Shown here: positions 8,292 to 15,256 of the stretch, piece by piece | How positions within the stretch are numbered: position 1 is the stretch's first letter | How the letters are laid out: the number at the start of each line of letters is the position of its first letter | From: Arsukibacterium sp. UBA5043 | GTDB lineage: Bacteria > Pseudomonadota > Gammaproteobacteria > Enterobacterales > Alteromonadaceae | Assembly: GCA_002415085.1 (NCBI GenBank) | Contig: DIBV01000007.1 | Span: 1-64,000, forward strand | Direction of reading: 5' to 3' | DNA: 64,000 nucleotides | Notes under the pieces: model-generated | Databases searched by the model: none | What the model was told of the DNA's origin: nothing | Seen by the model: the letters and a program-made list of their open reading frames with translations, nothing else | Program-made: the position numbers and the translations under genes

Positions 8292-10793
8292 TCAGAAATC
8301 CACTACTAAATCAGCCGAACATACCATAGTGCCTTCCAGACACAGGGTGTAAGTTGCTGATGCTGCCATCGAGTTAAACCGATCACGATGTCTGCCATCA
8401 TTTTCAATTGTTTCGATATACGCACCATCACGGTACAGATCCAGATCACCTGTTGCTCCCATCCAGCGTAAGTCAACTATCGTTGATCCGGTGCGAGCTC
8501 TGATAGCGCGATGCAACGTTAACGTAATATCACTCTCAACCAGGCTAACCATCTGGCTTGTCATATCTGTTAAACCGGTACTGTCGGTAACTGTCAGGGT
8601 GACTTCATAGCTCCCTTCTGCCGGATAAGTGTGGCTCGGGTTTTGCTCGTCTGACACAGCGCCATCACCAAAATCCCAGCTCCAGCTGCTGATATTATCG
8701 TTGGCATCAGTAGAACTGTCGGTAAAATCGACATTCAGGCCTGATGCAACATAACTAAAGCCTGCTGCCGGCGCCACTGGATCCGGATCAACCACATCAC
8801 CACCAAGCGCTGTTATCGTCAGGTTCCAACTGTTTAAGGTGCCTAAATCGGCGCCGGCATTGTCAGATACATTCAGGGTCCAATCGCCTTGCATCGCTTC
8901 ACCATTGAAGGTATCAACGGTCCAGCTTTGCACTAAGTCATCTTCGCTGCCACCACTACGATTTTGCAGTATATGTTCTGTGCCTTGCGGCGACGTCAGA
9001 CTAACAACTAAGTCGCCTCTCCAGGTGTGGGTGATGTCAACGCCTGCTTCAACGTTAAATACGGTTCCTTCGTCAGGCACGTTTATAACACTGTTGATGC
9101 CAGTTGCGTTGTTATCTGGAATAGCCACGGGGTTGGTGTTCTCAAAACTGAAATCAGCCAGCCCTTGTGGCAACACCACCAGCGTTGCCGATACGCTTTT
9201 AACCACTGCTGGATCTGCCGCATCAATACCTGTCACTGTTACTAAATAATCGCCCCATGGGGTGTCAGCCATGGTCGGTACCGACACGGTAATGGTATCA
9301 CCCGGCTGAGCGGATTCAGCAGATAAGCTCACGCCTTCAATACTGGGATCGGTACTGACACTAAGCTCAACATCACCCATCCAGTCGGCCAGATTACCGA
9401 CATCAAGGCTAAATTCAGCCGTTTCACCGGCGGTAATCTGCTGACTGCGGGGAGATAATGTTAAGCGGAAACTCGGCGTTGGATCGGCATCAGCAAGCGC
9501 GTTTACCAGATTTAAACGCTTTCCAGAAACGGTCTTACCATCGAGCGAAGCAAGCTCGTCGCCACTATCCATCAGAATTGCTTTCATTTCCAGTGGGGTT
9601 ATTTCCGGATTTATAGACCACAACAGTGCTGCGGCACCTGCAACATGCGGCGAGGCCATGGAGGTACCAGAAAATACGGCATAATTGTTGCCCGGTACGG
9701 TTGATAAAATGTCTGAGCCCGGTGCGCCAAGATCGACCGAAGTAGCACCATAATTGGAAGCGCCAACAGCAAATACCGATAAATCATCAAGGCGATCGGT
9801 TGAAGCGACCGAGACAATAACATCAAGATCATAGCCCGCCGGATACATTGGACTAACATCAGCATCTGCGCCATCATTGCCTGAGGCTGCAATAAATAGA
9901 ATACCAGCATCGCCGCCTGACTGAATGGCTGCGCGCAACGTTTCGGAGAAACCGCCGCCGCCCCATGAGTTATTGGTAGCCTTAATGTTTACGCCATAAT
10001 TTGTTTTTAAATCGGTATAGTAGTCAATACATTCAATTGCGCCTGCCGTACTGCCACCCGTAGGGCCGAGGAACTGACAGGGCAGCAGGGTGACATTCCA
10101 GTTTACGCCGGTTATACCCACACCATTGTCACCACCTGCTCCGATTGTCCCTGCAACATGAGTACCATGACTATCGCTATCCATCGGATCGTTATTTTCG
10201 TTCAGTGTTGAATAACCATATGGATGGCCCGGATAGCTGCCATCGTTCTCCCAACGGTTTGGAATTAAATCAGGATGGTTGTAATCCATACCTGAATCGA
10301 TAACACCAATCACCACATCATGACTACCGGTTGTGGTATCCCACGCTGCAACGGCACTGATATCGGCCCCAGCAGTACCACCATTTTGCCCGGTATTATT
10401 TAACGACCACATCTCTCCAAATCGGGGATCACCAGGAACGGCAAGAGGAGCGGCTAACGCTTTTACCAAATAATTTGGTTCAGCAACCTCAATAGCCGGG
10501 TTAGCGGCAAGCTGCTTAATTAAGAAGTCACGATTAACGCCTTTAGGTACTTTAATTTTGGCTATGCGTCCATCTGCAATATGACGCATTTTAATGTCAC
10601 GCCCCTGATTATCGAGTTGTCGCAGACTGGCACCGCTGCGTTTTACGATAGAAACACGCTCTTGTTTGGTTACGCCAGGTTTAAACATAACAAGAATAGA
10701 ATCATCAGCTTGCGCAGGCTTATTCGCTGCGAATGCTGAACCCGAACACAGCGCTGCGGCAACCGCTAACGCCAGAATTTTTTGCTTGGACAT
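8292..10793 (-). CDS. Secreted S8 serine peptidase (subtilase) with I9 propeptide, P/proprotein-convertase and PKD domains
   Basis: I start at ATG 10793 (833 residues), preceded by GGGAA; a second ATG at 10805 would add four residues but has no ribosome site. Counting from that longer start: signal peptide to about 26, inhibitor I9 propeptide about 33-115, catalytic domain about 130-440 with Asp170 (VIDSGMD), His213 (DSHGTHVAG), oxyanion Asn310 (AASGND) and Ser382 (SGTSMASPH). A linker region follows at 445-545, then a P/homoB-like domain at 550-668, a PKD domain at 678-757 (SWDFGDG) and a C-terminal beta domain that may bind surfaces. It should be an exported, self-processed endopeptidase. 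It is divergent from the curli genes, so it may act on the matrix, but this is inference. Confidence 0.93.
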   Translation of the reverse strand: MSKQKILALAVAAALCSGSAFAANKPAQADDSILVMFKPGVTKQERVSIVKRSGASLRQLDNQGRDIKMRHIADGRIAKIKVPKGVNRDFLIKQLAANPAIEVAEPNYLVKALAAPLAVPGDPRFGEMWSLNNTGQNGGTAGADISAVAAWDTTTGSHDVVIGVIDSGMDYNHPDLIPNRWENDGSYPGHPYGYSTLNENNDPMDSDSHGTHVAGTIGAGGDNGVGITGVNWNVTLLPCQFLGPTGGSTAGAIECIDYYTDLKTNYGVNIKATNNSWGGGGFSETLRAAIQSGGDAGILFIAASGNDGADADVSPMYPAGYDLDVIVSVASTDRLDDLSVFAVGASNYGATSVDLGAPGSDILSTVPGNNYAVFSGTSMASPHVAGAAALLWSINPEITPLEMKAILMDSGDELASLDGKTVSGKRLNLVNALADADPTPSFRLTLSPRSQQITAGETAEFSLDVGNLADWMGDVELSVSTDPSIEGVSLSAESAQPGDTITVSVPTMADTPWGDYLVTVTGIDAADPAVVKSVSATLVVLPQGLADFSFENTNPVAIPDNNATGINSVINVPDEGTVFNVEAGVDITHTWRGDLVVSLTSPQGTEHILQNRSGGSEDDLVQSWTVDTFNGEAMQGDWTLNVSDNAGADLGTLNSWNLTITALGGDVVDPDPVAPAAGFSYVASGLNVDFTDSSTDANDNISSWSWDFGDGAVSDEQNPSHTYPAEGSYEVTLTVTDSTGLTDMTSQMVSLVESDITLTLHRAIRARTGSTIVDLRWMGATGDLDLYRDGAYIETIENDGRHRDRFNSMAASATYTLCLEGTMVCSADLVVDF

Positions 10794-11081
10794 AGTAATT
10801 CCCATTTTAATTATTTGTAAAGATTATGCTTACTTACTGCACCAATAACCATTAGCATGAATATTAACAATTTGCTCATAACAATCGTGTAAATAGTACA
10901 AATGGATTAGTAGTTAAGGACGGGCACATGTGAATGGATGGTTATTATCCTATTGTATTTAAACAAAATAATAATTTTATACGAAGTTATTAAATTGAAA
11001 TAAAAATAAAACATTTGTCCTATTGTAGCTTTAAAATATGTCTTTAGTCTGGAAGTTGTAATAATTGATGAAGGAATGTTT
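10794..11081. promoter_or_regulatory. Divergent control region between the subtilase gene and the curli operon
   Basis: This 288-base stretch carries no gene and is strongly AT-rich from about 10940. It must hold promoters for both directions. A TTGAAA at 10995-11000 could be a -35 element for the curli operon, but no good -10 sits at the standard distance. Two exact copies of TCCTATTGTA occur at 10948-10957 and 11018-11027. A CTTTAGTCT element at 11042-11050 is also present upstream of the csgD-like gene. Confidence 0.6.
10948..11027 (+). repeat. Pair of 10-base direct repeats upstream of csgB
   Basis: TCCTATTGTA is found at 10948-10957 and again, same orientation, at 11018-11027, exactly 70 bases apart. 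Both lie in the AT-rich leader of the curli operon. They could be regulator-binding half-sites or a duplicated promoter element; no function is shown. Confidence 0.5.
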
Positions 11082-11486
11082 GTGCTAAATGTAAATACTA
11101 AGTCCGTCTTTTTGTTAGTTGGTATAACAGCTAGCGGTTGGGCGGTTGCAGATGTTTCAGTGCAATTAACTTCATTGATTGAGCGTCATGCCTTGGCTAA
11201 CGGAGTCGATATTACTCAGTTGGGCGATCTGAATGTTGCTGATGTCACTCAGGGAGGCGATGCCAATTATGCCGTTTTATTACAGCAAGGCGTGCTTAAT
11301 CAGATATTTCTGCAGCAGTATGGCAGTGGTAATCAGGCACAAATCCGGCAGTTCGGTAACAATAACAGTGCTGATATTTTGCAGCAGGGAGAGAGCAACC
11401 TGATCCAGCTGGAGCAATGGGGAAACCGCAGTTTCTCGATTGAGCAGATTGGAAACGGTGCTGAAATCTCAATAATTCAATACTAA
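11082..11486 (+). CDS. csgB: Curlin minor subunit, CsgB-like nucleator
   Basis: I choose GTG 11082 (134 residues) because AAGGA at 11071-11075 is 6 bases away; ATG 11076 touches it. A signal peptide ends near AVA-DVS. The mature part is about eight 11-residue half-repeats of the type xxQxGxxNxAxI, for example TQLGDLN, QQGVLN, QYGSGN, QFGNNN, QQGESN and QWGNRS. The central glutamine and asparagine ladder is kept in nearly every half-repeat, as in canonical CsgB/CsgA beta-solenoids. CsgB is anchored on the cell surface and templates polymerisation of the major curlin. It is first in the operon, 22 bases before csgA. The CsgB name rests on repeat type and order; a CsgA-like role is possible. Confidence 0.82.
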   Translation: MLNVNTKSVFLLVGITASGWAVADVSVQLTSLIERHALANGVDITQLGDLNVADVTQGGDANYAVLLQQGVLNQIFLQQYGSGNQAQIRQFGNNNSADILQQGESNLIQLEQWGNRSFSIEQIGNGAEISIIQY

Positions 11487-11508
11487 TAAGAGACTCAGGG
11501 AGAATCAC

Positions 11509-12996
11509 ATGAACCTTATTAAACCACGTAAACATTTTTTAGGTATGGCAATTGCTTTGTGTTTTGCGGGCAATGTTATGGCAGAAAATGAAGCTATTAT
11601 TTTGCAGAGCTCAGCAGTCGGTTCTGCAGAAGGTAATACTGCTGAAGTGACTCAAACCAATACCGGTGGTAATGCTAATCTTGCCATTATTGAGCAAGTT
11701 GGTGAACTGAACTATGGCAGTGTTTTACAGAATGGTCTGTGGCTGGAAGCCTATAGTTTTAATACAGGCAGCGATAACGCAGTGCGGATCGAGCAGTTTG
11801 CGGATTGGCACATTGCCTCTAGCGATATTGTCGGTGATGAGAACATAGTCACCATTACCCAGGATGGTTTTTTCAATCAGACAGACGTTATTATTGAAGG
11901 TAATGTCAATGATACTGCAGTTTTTCAAACCGGAGATTTAAACGAAGCATTCGCTACTTTACTGGGCGACATGAACCTTGCTGAAATTGAACAAAGTGGC
12001 AATAGCAACTGGGTTACTGCGGAGTTTACCGGTAATGAAAACATGTTTTATAGTTATCAGGAAGGTAGCAGCAACGAAGCTGCCATGCTCGGCGTTGTCG
12101 GAAACTCCAATCAATTCGAAGCCGAACAGTTTGGTGATCAGAACGTGGGCGGAGTGGTAGGGTTAAGCGGCGATAACAATGCCATTTTCGTGCAGCAGGA
12201 CGGCATGCTCAATGCCTTTATTGCGACGGACGTTACCGGCAATGATAACTTGATTGATGTTTTTCAAGATGGCTCTGATAACGTTTTTTTGGTGCAACCG
12301 GTCACCGGCGACACCAACTGGATCCTGATTGATCAAACTGGTGTCAGCAATCTGGTGGAAGCGCCACTGGGACTTGTTGGCAATAATAACCTTATTGATG
12401 TCCGGCAAGATGGTACTGAAAACAATGCACTAGTAGCAACTGATGGTGATAATCACAATTTAACTATTTACCAGGACGGTGATATGAACACCGCAGAAAT
12501 GGTGTTGGGTGTTGATGGCAACAGTGCTGATATTTATAGTCGCGGTAATAATAATTATGCCGGCGTAGGCTTAGTAGGTAGTGACAATATTACCGACATC
12601 ATGCAGCGTGGTGATGATAACTTTGCTGTGGTTGATGTTGTTGGCGATGACAACGAGATCAGTGTTGATCAAATGGGTAATACCAACGAAGTGCTTATTA
12701 CCAGTGCCGTAGTGGTAGTTGAAAACAATATCAGTGTCCAGCAGGATGGTGATCTCAACCTGGTTGATATGCTTGTTGAAGGTAGTGGCAATCTGGCAGA
12801 CATTTTACAAGAAGGAAATGGCAACTGGGTAGCCGGCAACGATGGATACTTTGCACTTTCCGGAGAAAATGGTACCGTGGCTATCAGTCAACTGGGTAAT
12901 GACAATCTGGTGTTAGGAGAGCAGTATGGCAACGGTAATATCATGAATATTACTCAGCTGGGCGACTTTAATACCGCAATCGTTACTCAAAACTAA
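11509..12996 (+). CDS. csgA: Unusually large acidic curlin, CsgA-like major subunit
   Basis: The 495-residue protein is far longer than E. coli CsgA (151). A signal peptide ends at VMA (residue 25). From residue 109 to 495 there are about 17 repeats of 20-27 residues with pattern G-(D/N)-x-N-x-(I/L)-x-(I/V)-x-Q-x-G-x-x-N; residues 42-108 hold a few less regular ones. The first half of each repeat keeps the curlin Q-x-G-x-x-N signature; the second half usually lacks the glutamine. By hand count the mature part has no Lys, no Cys, 4 Arg and about 71 Asp plus Glu. It should be exported through CsgG and form extracellular amyloid fibres. AGGGAGA precedes the ATG. A hairpin at 13004-13020 follows the stop. 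Confidence 0.85.
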   Translation: MNLIKPRKHFLGMAIALCFAGNVMAENEAIILQSSAVGSAEGNTAEVTQTNTGGNANLAIIEQVGELNYGSVLQNGLWLEAYSFNTGSDNAVRIEQFADWHIASSDIVGDENIVTITQDGFFNQTDVIIEGNVNDTAVFQTGDLNEAFATLLGDMNLAEIEQSGNSNWVTAEFTGNENMFYSYQEGSSNEAAMLGVVGNSNQFEAEQFGDQNVGGVVGLSGDNNAIFVQQDGMLNAFIATDVTGNDNLIDVFQDGSDNVFLVQPVTGDTNWILIDQTGVSNLVEAPLGLVGNNNLIDVRQDGTENNALVATDGDNHNLTIYQDGDMNTAEMVLGVDGNSADIYSRGNNNYAGVGLVGSDNITDIMQRGDDNFAVVDVVGDDNEISVDQMGNTNEVLITSAVVVVENNISVQQDGDLNLVDMLVEGSGNLADILQEGNGNWVAGNDGYFALSGENGTVAISQLGNDNLVLGEQYGNGNIMNITQLGDFNTAIVTQN

Positions 12997-13003
12997 CGTA
13001 AAG

Positions 13004-13020
13004 GGCGGCCTTTGGCCGCC
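13004..13020 (+). terminator. Intercistronic hairpin between csgA and csgE
   Basis: A perfect 7-base GC stem (GGCGGCC / GGCCGCC) with loop TTT lies between csgA and csgE, ending 8 bases before the csgE ATG. There is no T-run, so it is not a full terminator. It may stabilise the csgBA message, reduce read-through, or mask the csgE start, which has no clear ribosome-binding site. Confidence 0.55.
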
Positions 13021-13028
13021 ATAGGCAT

Positions 13029-13406
13029 ATGAAAGTAATTTTCCTGCTGTTATGTTTGCTGCTGCCGGTAAAGGCGGCAGCAAATGATATCGAATTAAGC
13101 GGCTTAGTGATTGACCGCACCATCTCGCGTTTTGGCAAAGACTTTATGTTCTATTATTCTGGTTACTGGCGTGATATGCCGGCAACGGAAGGCGTGTCTG
13201 TGGTTATTTATGAACAAGTATATCCCCAAGCCGGCACATTCTTGTGGGTGGAGATGAATCAACAACGCGTTTATCAAACATATTTCGGCCGGCGTTATAA
13301 CAATGTTAAGGAGATGGCTGAGCAGGCGATTTTGCGCAGTATTAATGAGCTGGCCAACATTCAGGCCAGTATGTTATTGGGTAGTCAGGATCAAGAAATA
13401 TTTTAA
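13029..13406 (+). CDS. csgE: Curli assembly protein CsgE
   Basis: A 125-residue periplasmic protein with a signal peptide ending near AAA-ND (about residue 18). The mature part follows the CsgE pattern: LSGLVIDRTISRFGKDF at the start, a WVEMNQQRVYQTYF strand in the middle, and a C-terminal helix and tail ending in DQEIF. CsgE caps the periplasmic side of the CsgG pore and gates curlin entry. No Shine-Dalgarno sequence is visible before the ATG and a hairpin ends 8 bases upstream, so translation may be low or coupled to csgA. csgF follows after 11 bases. Confidence 0.9.
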   Translation: MKVIFLLLCLLLPVKAAANDIELSGLVIDRTISRFGKDFMFYYSGYWRDMPATEGVSVVIYEQVYPQAGTFLWVEMNQQRVYQTYFGRRYNNVKEMAEQAILRSINELANIQASMLLGSQDQEIF

Positions 13407-13417
13407 AAGGAATAATA

Positions 13418-13804
13418 ATGAACAAATCTGCAGTACTGCTATTCCTGCTGGCATCTGCCTGCGCAAGTGCAACTGAGTTAGTTTATACCCCGATTAATCC
13501 AAGCTTTGGCGGCAATCCGCTAAATGGTAATTTCTTATTACAGAAAGCCCAAAGCCAGAACGGCTATAGTGAAGAACGACCAACGTTATCTTTTGTGGAT
13601 AAATTTCAGGAGGCATTGGAGCGAAACATTATCAACTCGCTAACCAGACGAATAGCTGATGGTGAGCTGGTTGATGGCACATACAATACCGGTGAGTTTT
13701 TAGTCGAAATCACCACCGGAACTGACGGCAGCGTTATTGTAAATATTACCAATATTGATACAGGTGAAGTGACGATCATTACTATTCCTGTGATTGGGGG
13801 TTAG
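13418..13804 (+). CDS. csgF: Curli assembly protein CsgF
   Basis: A 128-residue secreted protein with a signal peptide to about residue 18. The N-terminal mature segment YTPINPSFGGNPLNGNFLL carries the conserved (P/N)xFGGNPxNG motif by which CsgF inserts into the CsgG channel. The rest is a helix followed by a small beta domain that couples CsgB to the pore on the cell surface. A good AAAAGGAA ribosome site precedes the ATG. The stop is followed after two bases by csgG. Confidence 0.93.
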   Translation: MNKSAVLLFLLASACASATELVYTPINPSFGGNPLNGNFLLQKAQSQNGYSEERPTLSFVDKFQEALERNIINSLTRRIADGELVDGTYNTGEFLVEITTGTDGSVIVNITNIDTGEVTIITIPVIGG

Positions 13805-13806
13805 TA

Positions 13807-14586
13807 ATGAAAGCAGTAGTTAATATAATAGTGATGTCCGCTCTGGCGGGATGTTCTCTGGTACCAAAACCTGAGCTGAGTATTACCCCGGCCAGTGTTG
13901 ATAGTATTAGTAGCACTATGCAGACGTTGCAACAGCAAGCAAAACCACGACAGCAAATCCCTGTTTCTGTCTATGCTTTTCGGGATCAGACGGGCCAATA
14001 TAAACCTCAGGGCAATGTATCAAGTTTTTCTACCGCAGTAACTCAGGGTGCAACCTCAATGCTAACCCAGATCCTGCTTGATAGTGGCTGGTTTGCGCCA
14101 CTGGAGCGGGAAGGATTACAAAATTTGCTTACTGAGCGAAAAATTTATGGCTCAAATAAAAAATTAACCGAACTGCCGCCGCTCAAAGAGGCCCGTTTAG
14201 TTTTCGAGGGCGGTATTATTGGTTATGAGACCAACTTAACTACAGGTGGTATTGGCGCTGAATATTTTGGTTTGGGACTGTCAGAATTATATCGGGAAGA
14301 TCAGGTAACGGTTTATCTGCGAGCAATTGATGTCTATACGGGTCAGGTGTTGCTTTCCGTTTCTACGACTAAAAAAGTGTTTTCACAGGAGTTACGCGCC
14401 GGTTTATTCCGATATGTGTCATTGAACAGACTGGTCGAAATGGAGGGGGGGTATTCGACCAATGAACCGGTGCAGTATTGTGTTAAGCAAGCAATGGAAA
14501 GTGCCGTGGTTGAATTAATTAGTATAGGTCTCGAGCGTGGTTTCTGGCGTACTGACGATCAGGCCAGTTTGGCAAGCTCAGGCTGA
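13807..14586 (+). CDS. csgG: Curli secretion channel lipoprotein CsgG
   Basis: The 259-residue precursor has a lipobox LAGC (Cys16), so it is an outer-membrane lipoprotein. The family core is clear: VYAFRDQTGQYKP, FSTAVTQGATSML, LEREGLQNLLTERK, EGGIIGYETN and YSTNEPVQYCV. CsgG forms the nonameric pore through which curlins leave the cell. Against E. coli CsgG from memory, the constriction loop reads PQGNVSSFS instead of PYPASNFS. Phe56 is kept, Tyr51 and Asn55 are replaced, and the loop is one residue longer. The last 28 bases overlap the 3' end of the opposite csgD-like gene. Confidence 0.95.
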   Translation: MKAVVNIIVMSALAGCSLVPKPELSITPASVDSISSTMQTLQQQAKPRQQIPVSVYAFRDQTGQYKPQGNVSSFSTAVTQGATSMLTQILLDSGWFAPLEREGLQNLLTERKIYGSNKKLTELPPLKEARLVFEGGIIGYETNLTTGGIGAEYFGLGLSELYREDQVTVYLRAIDVYTGQVLLSVSTTKKVFSQELRAGLFRYVSLNRLVEMEGGYSTNEPVQYCVKQAMESAVVELISIGLERGFWRTDDQASLASSG

Positions 14587-15236
14587 CTTTCCAATATCAG
14601 GTTGGATTGCTGCAACCAACGCAGCAATTCAACCCGGTTTCGGGCCTGCGTTTTTCTAAATACGGCCGATAAATGTGCTTTAACTGTATGAGCACTGATA
14701 TTCAATACTTCCGCGATTTCTTTGTTACGGGCACCTTCTGCAACTAGTCCAATTATCCGCTTCTCTTGCCGGGTAAGTTGGGCGTTGATACTGGCAGTCA
14801 TTTCTAAATTAGCTTTCTTAGGTTTATTAATCAGCAGATCCACTACGTCCGACATGACCGTACGCGAATAATATAACTGGCCGGACATCAGGGTTTTCAG
14901 CGCGGTCAATACCCGGTCTAATTGTTCATCACGATAGATCAACCCTCTGATCCCATTGTGAATCGCCAGCGCAGGATCGATTAGTGCCCGCTCAGCCTGA
15001 AAAATAAATACCGGGCAGCGCTGCATAATCGTCGATAATTCGTTAGACAGGCCTTTTTTGGTCAGATCATGGCTGTTAAACTGATAGCCCACCAAGACAC
15101 CTGATTTAATAGGCTGTTGAATAAAATCGGTACGATTGCACTGCTGTACTTTTATGCCAACCGATTGAGCCAGCATCGCGGTATTATGTAATTGCTGGCG
15201 CTCTGATAGTATTATCAGCTTGGAAAACCGTTCCAT
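14559..15236 (-). CDS. CsgD-like LuxR-family transcriptional regulator
   Basis: I start at ATG 15236 (225 residues) with GGAGGTG upstream; an upstream TTG at 15251 would put the ribosome site inside the gene. Residues about 1-130 form a degenerate receiver-like domain without a convincing phospho-acceptor aspartate, as in CsgD and VpsT. Residues about 150-212 are a LuxR-type helix-turn-helix (LTRQEKRIIGLVAEG, NKEIAEVLNISAHTVKAHL). CsgD activates curli and matrix genes. Its place at the end of the curli operon, tail to tail with csgG and overlapping it by 28 bases, supports this role. An inverted repeat just upstream (15257-15279) may be its own operator. Confidence 0.85.
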   Translation of the reverse strand: MERFSKLIILSERQQLHNTAMLAQSVGIKVQQCNRTDFIQQPIKSGVLVGYQFNSHDLTKKGLSNELSTIMQRCPVFIFQAERALIDPALAIHNGIRGLIYRDEQLDRVLTALKTLMSGQLYYSRTVMSDVVDLLINKPKKANLEMTASINAQLTRQEKRIIGLVAEGARNKEIAEVLNISAHTVKAHLSAVFRKTQARNRVELLRWLQQSNLILESQPELAKLA

Positions 15237-15256
15237 TGTTTTCACCTCCAAACGAC

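Follow-up and report, generated by a model that had tools for sequence, protein, structure and literature searches.

The csg locus and its major subunit

Curli are protein fibres that many bacteria use in building biofilms. The DNA analysed here, termed the window, is the first 64,000 nucleotides of contig DIBV01000007.1 of Arsukibacterium sp. UBA5043, a genus that the NCBI taxonomy places in the Chromatiaceae, Gammaproteobacteria. It carries a curli locus whose csgA gene, the subject of this analysis, encodes a long and strongly acidic protein. The gene order is csgB-csgA-csgE-csgF-csgG, and a csgD-like LuxR gene lies behind it on the opposite strand (Table 1). With csgB, csgE, csgF and csgG alongside, csgA stands in the context of a curli operon.

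Table 1. Features of the csg locus (window coordinates; aa, amino acids)
Feature	Position	Strand	Basis
csgB, minor subunit, presumed nucleator, 136 aa	11076..11486	+	Gln at 6 of 6 xxGxxN sites
csgA, major curli subunit, 495 aa	11509..12996	+	Open reading frame and stop, Curlin_rpt match, composition
Signal peptide of CsgA, 25 aa	11509..11583	+	Read by eye from the VMA/EN motif, without tool prediction
Interior CsgA turns, Gln on one strand only	11809..12873	+	Half-turn parse and Gln counts
CsgA C-terminal stretch, 30 residues with 2 acids and with Gln on all strands	12904..12993	+	
csgE	13029..13406	+	PF10627
csgF	13418..13804	+	PF10614
csgG, outer-membrane secretion channel	13807..14586	+	PF03783
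csgD-like LuxR-type regulator	14559..15251	-	PF00196; best NCBIfam match CsgD, 68.9 bits against 250, below cut-off

The csgA frame runs for 495 aa and then a stop; the initial annotation, made from the sequence alone, had its coordinates, frame and length right. Its identification as CsgA is borne out by the Pfam model Curlin_rpt (PF07012), which scores 186.7 bits against a cut-off of 20.7 (E = 5.2e-56) with 15 stretches scored. The NCBIfam equivalog for the curli major subunit CsgA (NF007470, 150 positions) gives 111.0 bits, below its cut-off of 160, and the protein is therefore filed under the wider curlin family, outside the narrow equivalog. The CsgB model NF007506 gives 120.5 bits against a cut-off of 165. 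The product is almost certainly CsgA. A search of the same genome with the protein returned CsgA itself and csgB, and nothing more.

The chain after residue 25 has 470 residues, with no Lys, no Cys, 4 Arg, 2 His and 71 acids (42 Asp and 29 Glu), exactly as had been counted by hand. Its computed charge at pH 7 is about -67, and strong acidity in a chain without Lys is confirmed.

Two observations concern the neighbouring genes. The csgG and csgD-like genes overlap tail to tail by 28 bases (positions 14559-14586). A subtilase gene (S8, with a P-domain and a PKD domain; positions 8292-10805, minus strand) adjoins csgBA and points away from it; many subtilases are secreted by Arsukibacterium ikkense (PMC4767292; this and the other papers cited here are drawn on in part).

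A regular one-sided glutamine pattern

Half-turns of the protein were parsed by scoring Gly, Asn and hydrophobic positions, with no weight given to Gln. In CsgA the parse places 43 half-turn anchors at spacings that are almost always 11-13 residues; the first few fall within the signal and N-terminal region. This corresponds to about 20 full turns, and the earlier estimate of about 17 repeats was too low. Interior anchors are Gln and non-Gln in turn: neighbouring anchors alternate in a fraction of 0.84 compared with 0.51 in shuffled sequences, and none of 2000 shuffles is as high. The half-lost Gln ladder first noted by eye is thus real and regular. At the slot of the second Gln, 11-residue half-turns have I, V, L, F, N or T, and 12-residue half-turns, counted from the Asn, have G or D with V or L adjacent. 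The earlier wording of small, hydrophobic or acidic residues is a fair one, and the exact residues depend on how they are counted. Toward its ends the chain has Q-Q near the N-terminus and Q-Q-Q-Q at the C-terminus. A one-sided solenoid, as first proposed, therefore describes the interior with its single regular Gln ladder, but not the ends, which carry Gln on both strands. Recent repeat expansion was considered and rejected: there is no tandem DNA repeat in positions 11000-13100 and no gap among six orthologues.

This pattern places the protein in the degenerate (D) class of curlins, where motif a and/or b is incomplete (e.g., motif b without Gln) or the repeats are longer, and in most respects it is an ordinary and intact member. 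It does not belong to the centrosymmetric (CS) class, where the core of motif a is repeated in motif b as in R15.5, the CsgA of Pontibacter korlensis (PDB 8c50), the interior second Gln being absent.

An orthologue of CsgA is present in 24 of 31 genomes of the genus; all 24 frames are open and encode 490 to 527 residues. In the family, which is here the numbered family grouping of the genome search, CsgF is found in 114 of 395 genomes, 113 of them above cut-off; a below-cut-off CsgF match in genome G229 was left out of the locus set. The 114 loci examined (24 from the genus, 90 others) gave 110 curlins of at least 300 residues, and 109 of these have at least 400, the excluded one being that of locus L111 (310 aa). 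Loci L134, L155, L177 and L178 gave no curlin of 300 aa, and L134 consists of 2.7 kb at a contig end. The protein had been called giant, but with a curlin of at least 400 residues at 109 of 114 loci its length is normal for the family. The alternating repeat is likewise found across the family: the shuffle p is at most 0.0005 in 97 of the 109 proteins and at most 0.036 in the remainder. The first label of curlins as half or double read only the residue two before the Gly and misses a Gln three before the Gly, as R15.5 shows. Under a looser Gln rule the interior Q-Q fraction is below 0.15 in 102 of the 109 and above it in the other 7, and the pattern stays. The window CsgA is unusually long and acidic, yet of a kind common to whole groups of related bacteria.

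Acidity also extends beyond the genus. The net negative charge per 100 residues has a median of 12.6 in the genus and of 14.6 among the other family members, and the median number of acids is 64 in the 24 genus proteins and 75 in 85 other family proteins. A link between acidity and the ikaite habitat is rejected on these values, since the rest of the family is equally or more acidic. Freedom from Lys varies: it holds for 15 of 24 genus proteins and 13 of 85 others.

Fifty-four representatives with less than 70% identity, 48 from the family and 6 chosen from other families for their similar look, have a median length of 493 residues (middle half 487-506) and a median of 41.5 half-turns (middle half 40-42). 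Of 759 half-turns leading from a non-Gln to a Gln anchor, 696 have 11 residues; of the 759 in the opposite order 414 do, the rest mostly having 12. One strand is rigid and the other permits bulges. In the 11-residue half-turns the slot of the second Gln is V, I or L in 302 of 471.

Long CsgA proteins occur in other families of the order as well, some with Gln on both strands (51 genomes at order level have curlin repeats, and regions were taken from 20). A midpoint-rooted tree of 63 CsgG rows, labelled by the first rule, has a 51-row group with support 100/99. The group comprises the family's rows and those of two other families, 49 of the rows being labelled one-ladder and 2 intermediate. The half label needs four changes on this tree, two of them forced by the starred branches, and a single origin of it is thus not shown. 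This label also fell on shorter, irregular curlins from other families (L218, L220, L221). In two other genera of the family, short curlins stand near the long one and replace the usual single csgB: two in L094 (128 and 149 aa) and three in L108 (141-153 aa). A distinct curlin architecture belonging to a large gammaproteobacterial group, with a solenoid of near-constant length (about 20 turns), a single interior Gln ladder and a double-Gln, acid-poor kernel at the C-terminal turn, is put forward tentatively, with the odds somewhat against it.

The last turn, the acid residues and the proposed fibre

Every one of the 54 representatives ends in two Gln anchors, a pairing seen in 16 of 1667 neighbouring pairs in the interior. 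Acids per residue fall from 0.162 in the interior to 0.063 in the last 30 or so residues. The last strands are the best conserved and the interior strands the least. Two single positions are also kept: counting strands back from the C-terminus, an outward Asp in strand seven (52 of 54) and an inward Gly in strand three (53 of 54). In E. coli CsgA the Asp gatekeepers sit in repeats R2 to R4, and the lag becomes shorter when they are changed toward R1/R5; the gatekeeping proposed for it depends largely on Arg/Lys partners of Asp, and Asp-Asp repulsion is also mentioned (PMC9900396). By analogy, the last turn may be a conserved edge for elongation, with charge gatekeeping in the interior, at a little under even odds.

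The acids of the window CsgA are spread and not stacked. Acid lies over acid in successive turns in 8 of 210 pairs, compared with 16.7 +/- 2.9 in shuffles (p = 0.001); an earlier version of the test, on interior half-turns only, gave 5 against 15.3 for this protein and z = -4.1 overall. Low acid stacking at p <= 0.05 holds for 22 of 24 genus members (exceptions L004 and L025), and spread acids are thus the state of the genus. The same script gives R15.5 a value of 40 of 168 against 30.0 +/- 2.5, above expectation, which indicates that the test can detect ladders; the face figures of R15.5 carry the same off-by-one as the first Gln label. Eleven long double-Gln curlins used as a control give 85 against 91.2 +/- 7.0. 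The spread argues against a metal ladder and is compatible with gatekeeping by repulsion.

The following explanation is given a rough probability of three in four. CsgA would be exported through CsgG, aided by CsgE and CsgF; CsgB would nucleate, and CsgA would polymerise on the cell surface into biofilm fibres. Its approximately 20 stacked beta-arches would form one long solenoid, and a solenoid of stacked arches, which the initial annotation had proposed for checking by structure prediction, is present in the predicted structure. In the interior, one sheet would carry the canonical N...Q motif and the other would be mostly aliphatic at the Gln slot, the core being held by the Gln ladder on one side and by packing on the other. 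The many staggered acids may slow off-pathway aggregation by charge gatekeeping. The last turn may keep its double Gln and few acids because its edge acts as template for the next subunit, or has that subunit as its template. What the analysis shows is the pattern in the sequence and how it is conserved, a predicted fold, and a genus without acid ladders; secretion and polymerisation, and what the last turn and the acids do, we infer from these.

Several points weigh against it. The predicted model shares 32% identity with 8c50 over 348 aligned residues, but at a root-mean-square deviation of 8.3 A; Foldseek gives no PDB match at E <= 0.001, with 8c50 at rank 44 (E 8.9), and an AlphaFold2 model made without relatives is much weaker (predicted local distance difference test score 70.9). 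Among the representatives, no more than 31 of 54 show less acid stacking than expected (802 observed, 843 expected; z -2.1). The hydrophobic residues of CsgA also stack slightly below chance (20 against 25.7, p = 0.044), and the avoidance is therefore not clearly specific to acids. Interior identities are depressed by register slips; in a repeat-by-repeat comparison of CsgA with the other 53 representatives the best offset is not 0 in 22. A double Gln near the N-terminus is present in only 24 of 54 representatives. With 4 Arg and no Lys, CsgA is nearly without the basic partners of the E. coli gatekeepers, and only Asp-Asp repulsion would apply.

A solenoid with two unlike faces, in which both sides of the non-Gln sheet are hydrophobic and the sheet packs against its counterpart in another filament or adheres to hydrophobic surfaces, is an unlikely alternative that draws on family-wide values. 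In the 11-residue half-turns of the representatives, the non-Gln strand has V/I/L/M/F/Y/W at a fraction of 0.36 of its outward positions and the Gln strand at 0.20, the former exceeding the latter in 53 of 54; for outward acids the fractions are 0.24 and 0.35, the non-Gln strand being the lower in 44 of 54. The family as a whole thus leans weakly toward acids on the Gln-strand face, and the more hydrophobic outer face of the non-Gln strand is a hint of filament pairing. The difference is weak in the window CsgA, with outward hydrophobic residues at 11 of 24 and 13 of 39 positions, and it disappears over all half-turns (18 of 45 and 17 of 45, p = 1.0). Uneven faces are also found in several CsgB proteins and some other curlins.

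An acidic fibre that binds metal or nucleates mineral, with aligned Asp/Glu on one face and assembly dependent on divalent cations, is less probable still. A 470-residue chain with 71 acids and only 4 Arg would suit it. R15.5 has an Asp/Glu grid, and its aggregation increases with Ca2+; a crust also forms on it, interpreted by the authors as calcium phosphate (PMC10192328). Arsukibacterium ikkense comes from calcium carbonate columns whose interior is above pH 10 (PMC4767292). The negatively charged face inferred at first is nevertheless rejected for the window CsgA, as outward Asp/Glu are equally common on the Gln strand (11 of 39 positions) and the other strand (7 of 24). The acid ladder for metals is rejected as well, stacking being below chance, the opposite of R15.5, and neither GGxGxD (RTX-type) nor D-x-[DN]-x-DG has a match in CsgA. 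The acidity is family-wide, and R15.5 itself formed fibrils even with EDTA and at pH 9, its aggregates increasing with Ca2+ or at pH 4 (PMC10192328). The initial description of the protein is correct, but its charge part was over-interpreted. A relaxed curlin, in which the ends suffice for assembly and the second Gln was lost by drift without function, has precedents for such losses in the published degenerate class (PMC10192328) and agrees with the low conservation of interior strands, but is very unlikely given the regular alternation, the mostly aliphatic slot and the open frame in all genus copies found.

Comparison with known curlins

Earlier work offers precedents for the protein's size and acidity, for the loss of a ladder and for the metal test that was proposed. 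CsgA proteins of up to 529 residues and 22 repeats are reported outside Enterobacteriales (Dueholm 2012, PMC3521004). Sleutel 2023 (PMC10192328) sorts curlins into classes by Gln pattern, with a degenerate class that may lose the Gln in motif b, and gives repeat numbers with local peaks near 15 and 22. The possibility, raised initially, that a large acidic half-repeat CsgA is already described is thus partly realised in these two papers; the regular one-ladder pattern is not seen in the parts of them used here. In the open-licence literature searched, where the phrase "glutamine ladder" was combined with other terms, no description was found of a regular pattern with one ladder, of the constant length or of a last turn that is canonical. 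No paper on curli of Arsukibacterium was found in that literature, and the word curli occurs 0 times in PMC4767292. The regular single ladder, the near-constant length and the double-Gln, acid-poor last turn are possibly new.

What deserves following is the canonical last turn and how regular the pattern is over many species. Should the wider pattern hold up, it amounts to a natural experiment in which half of the Gln ladder has gone from the interior in dozens of species and the last turn keeps it. It would separate what a repeat needs for folding within the subunit from what it needs for propagation between subunits. A few substitutions could then test which of the Gln residues serve amyloid propagation and which serve the fold alone.

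The arrangement of genes is shared with Alteromonas and Pseudoalteromonas (PMC3521004), which have a csgBAEFG operon, an opposite csgD and a long CsgA; the same order is given in the P. tunicata genome paper. The regular loss of one Gln, the acidity and the constant length are not described in the portion of PMC3521004 drawn on. E. coli CsgA (PDB 8enq) has curlin repeats and is likewise the major subunit of a csg operon, but it has 151 aa, five repeats and Gln on both strands, with 10 acids and 4 bases after residue 22. R15.5 is also long, very acidic and a solenoid, with no Lys or Arg over residues 9-356; unlike the present protein, it is of the centrosymmetric class, with Gln in both motifs and its acids on one face and stacked. 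The degenerate class shares a motif b without Gln, at times with hydrophobic substitutes, and longer arcs. Its example, as given in the sections of PMC10192328 used, is irregular, whereas here the loss is one-sided and regular over most of the chain in many species.
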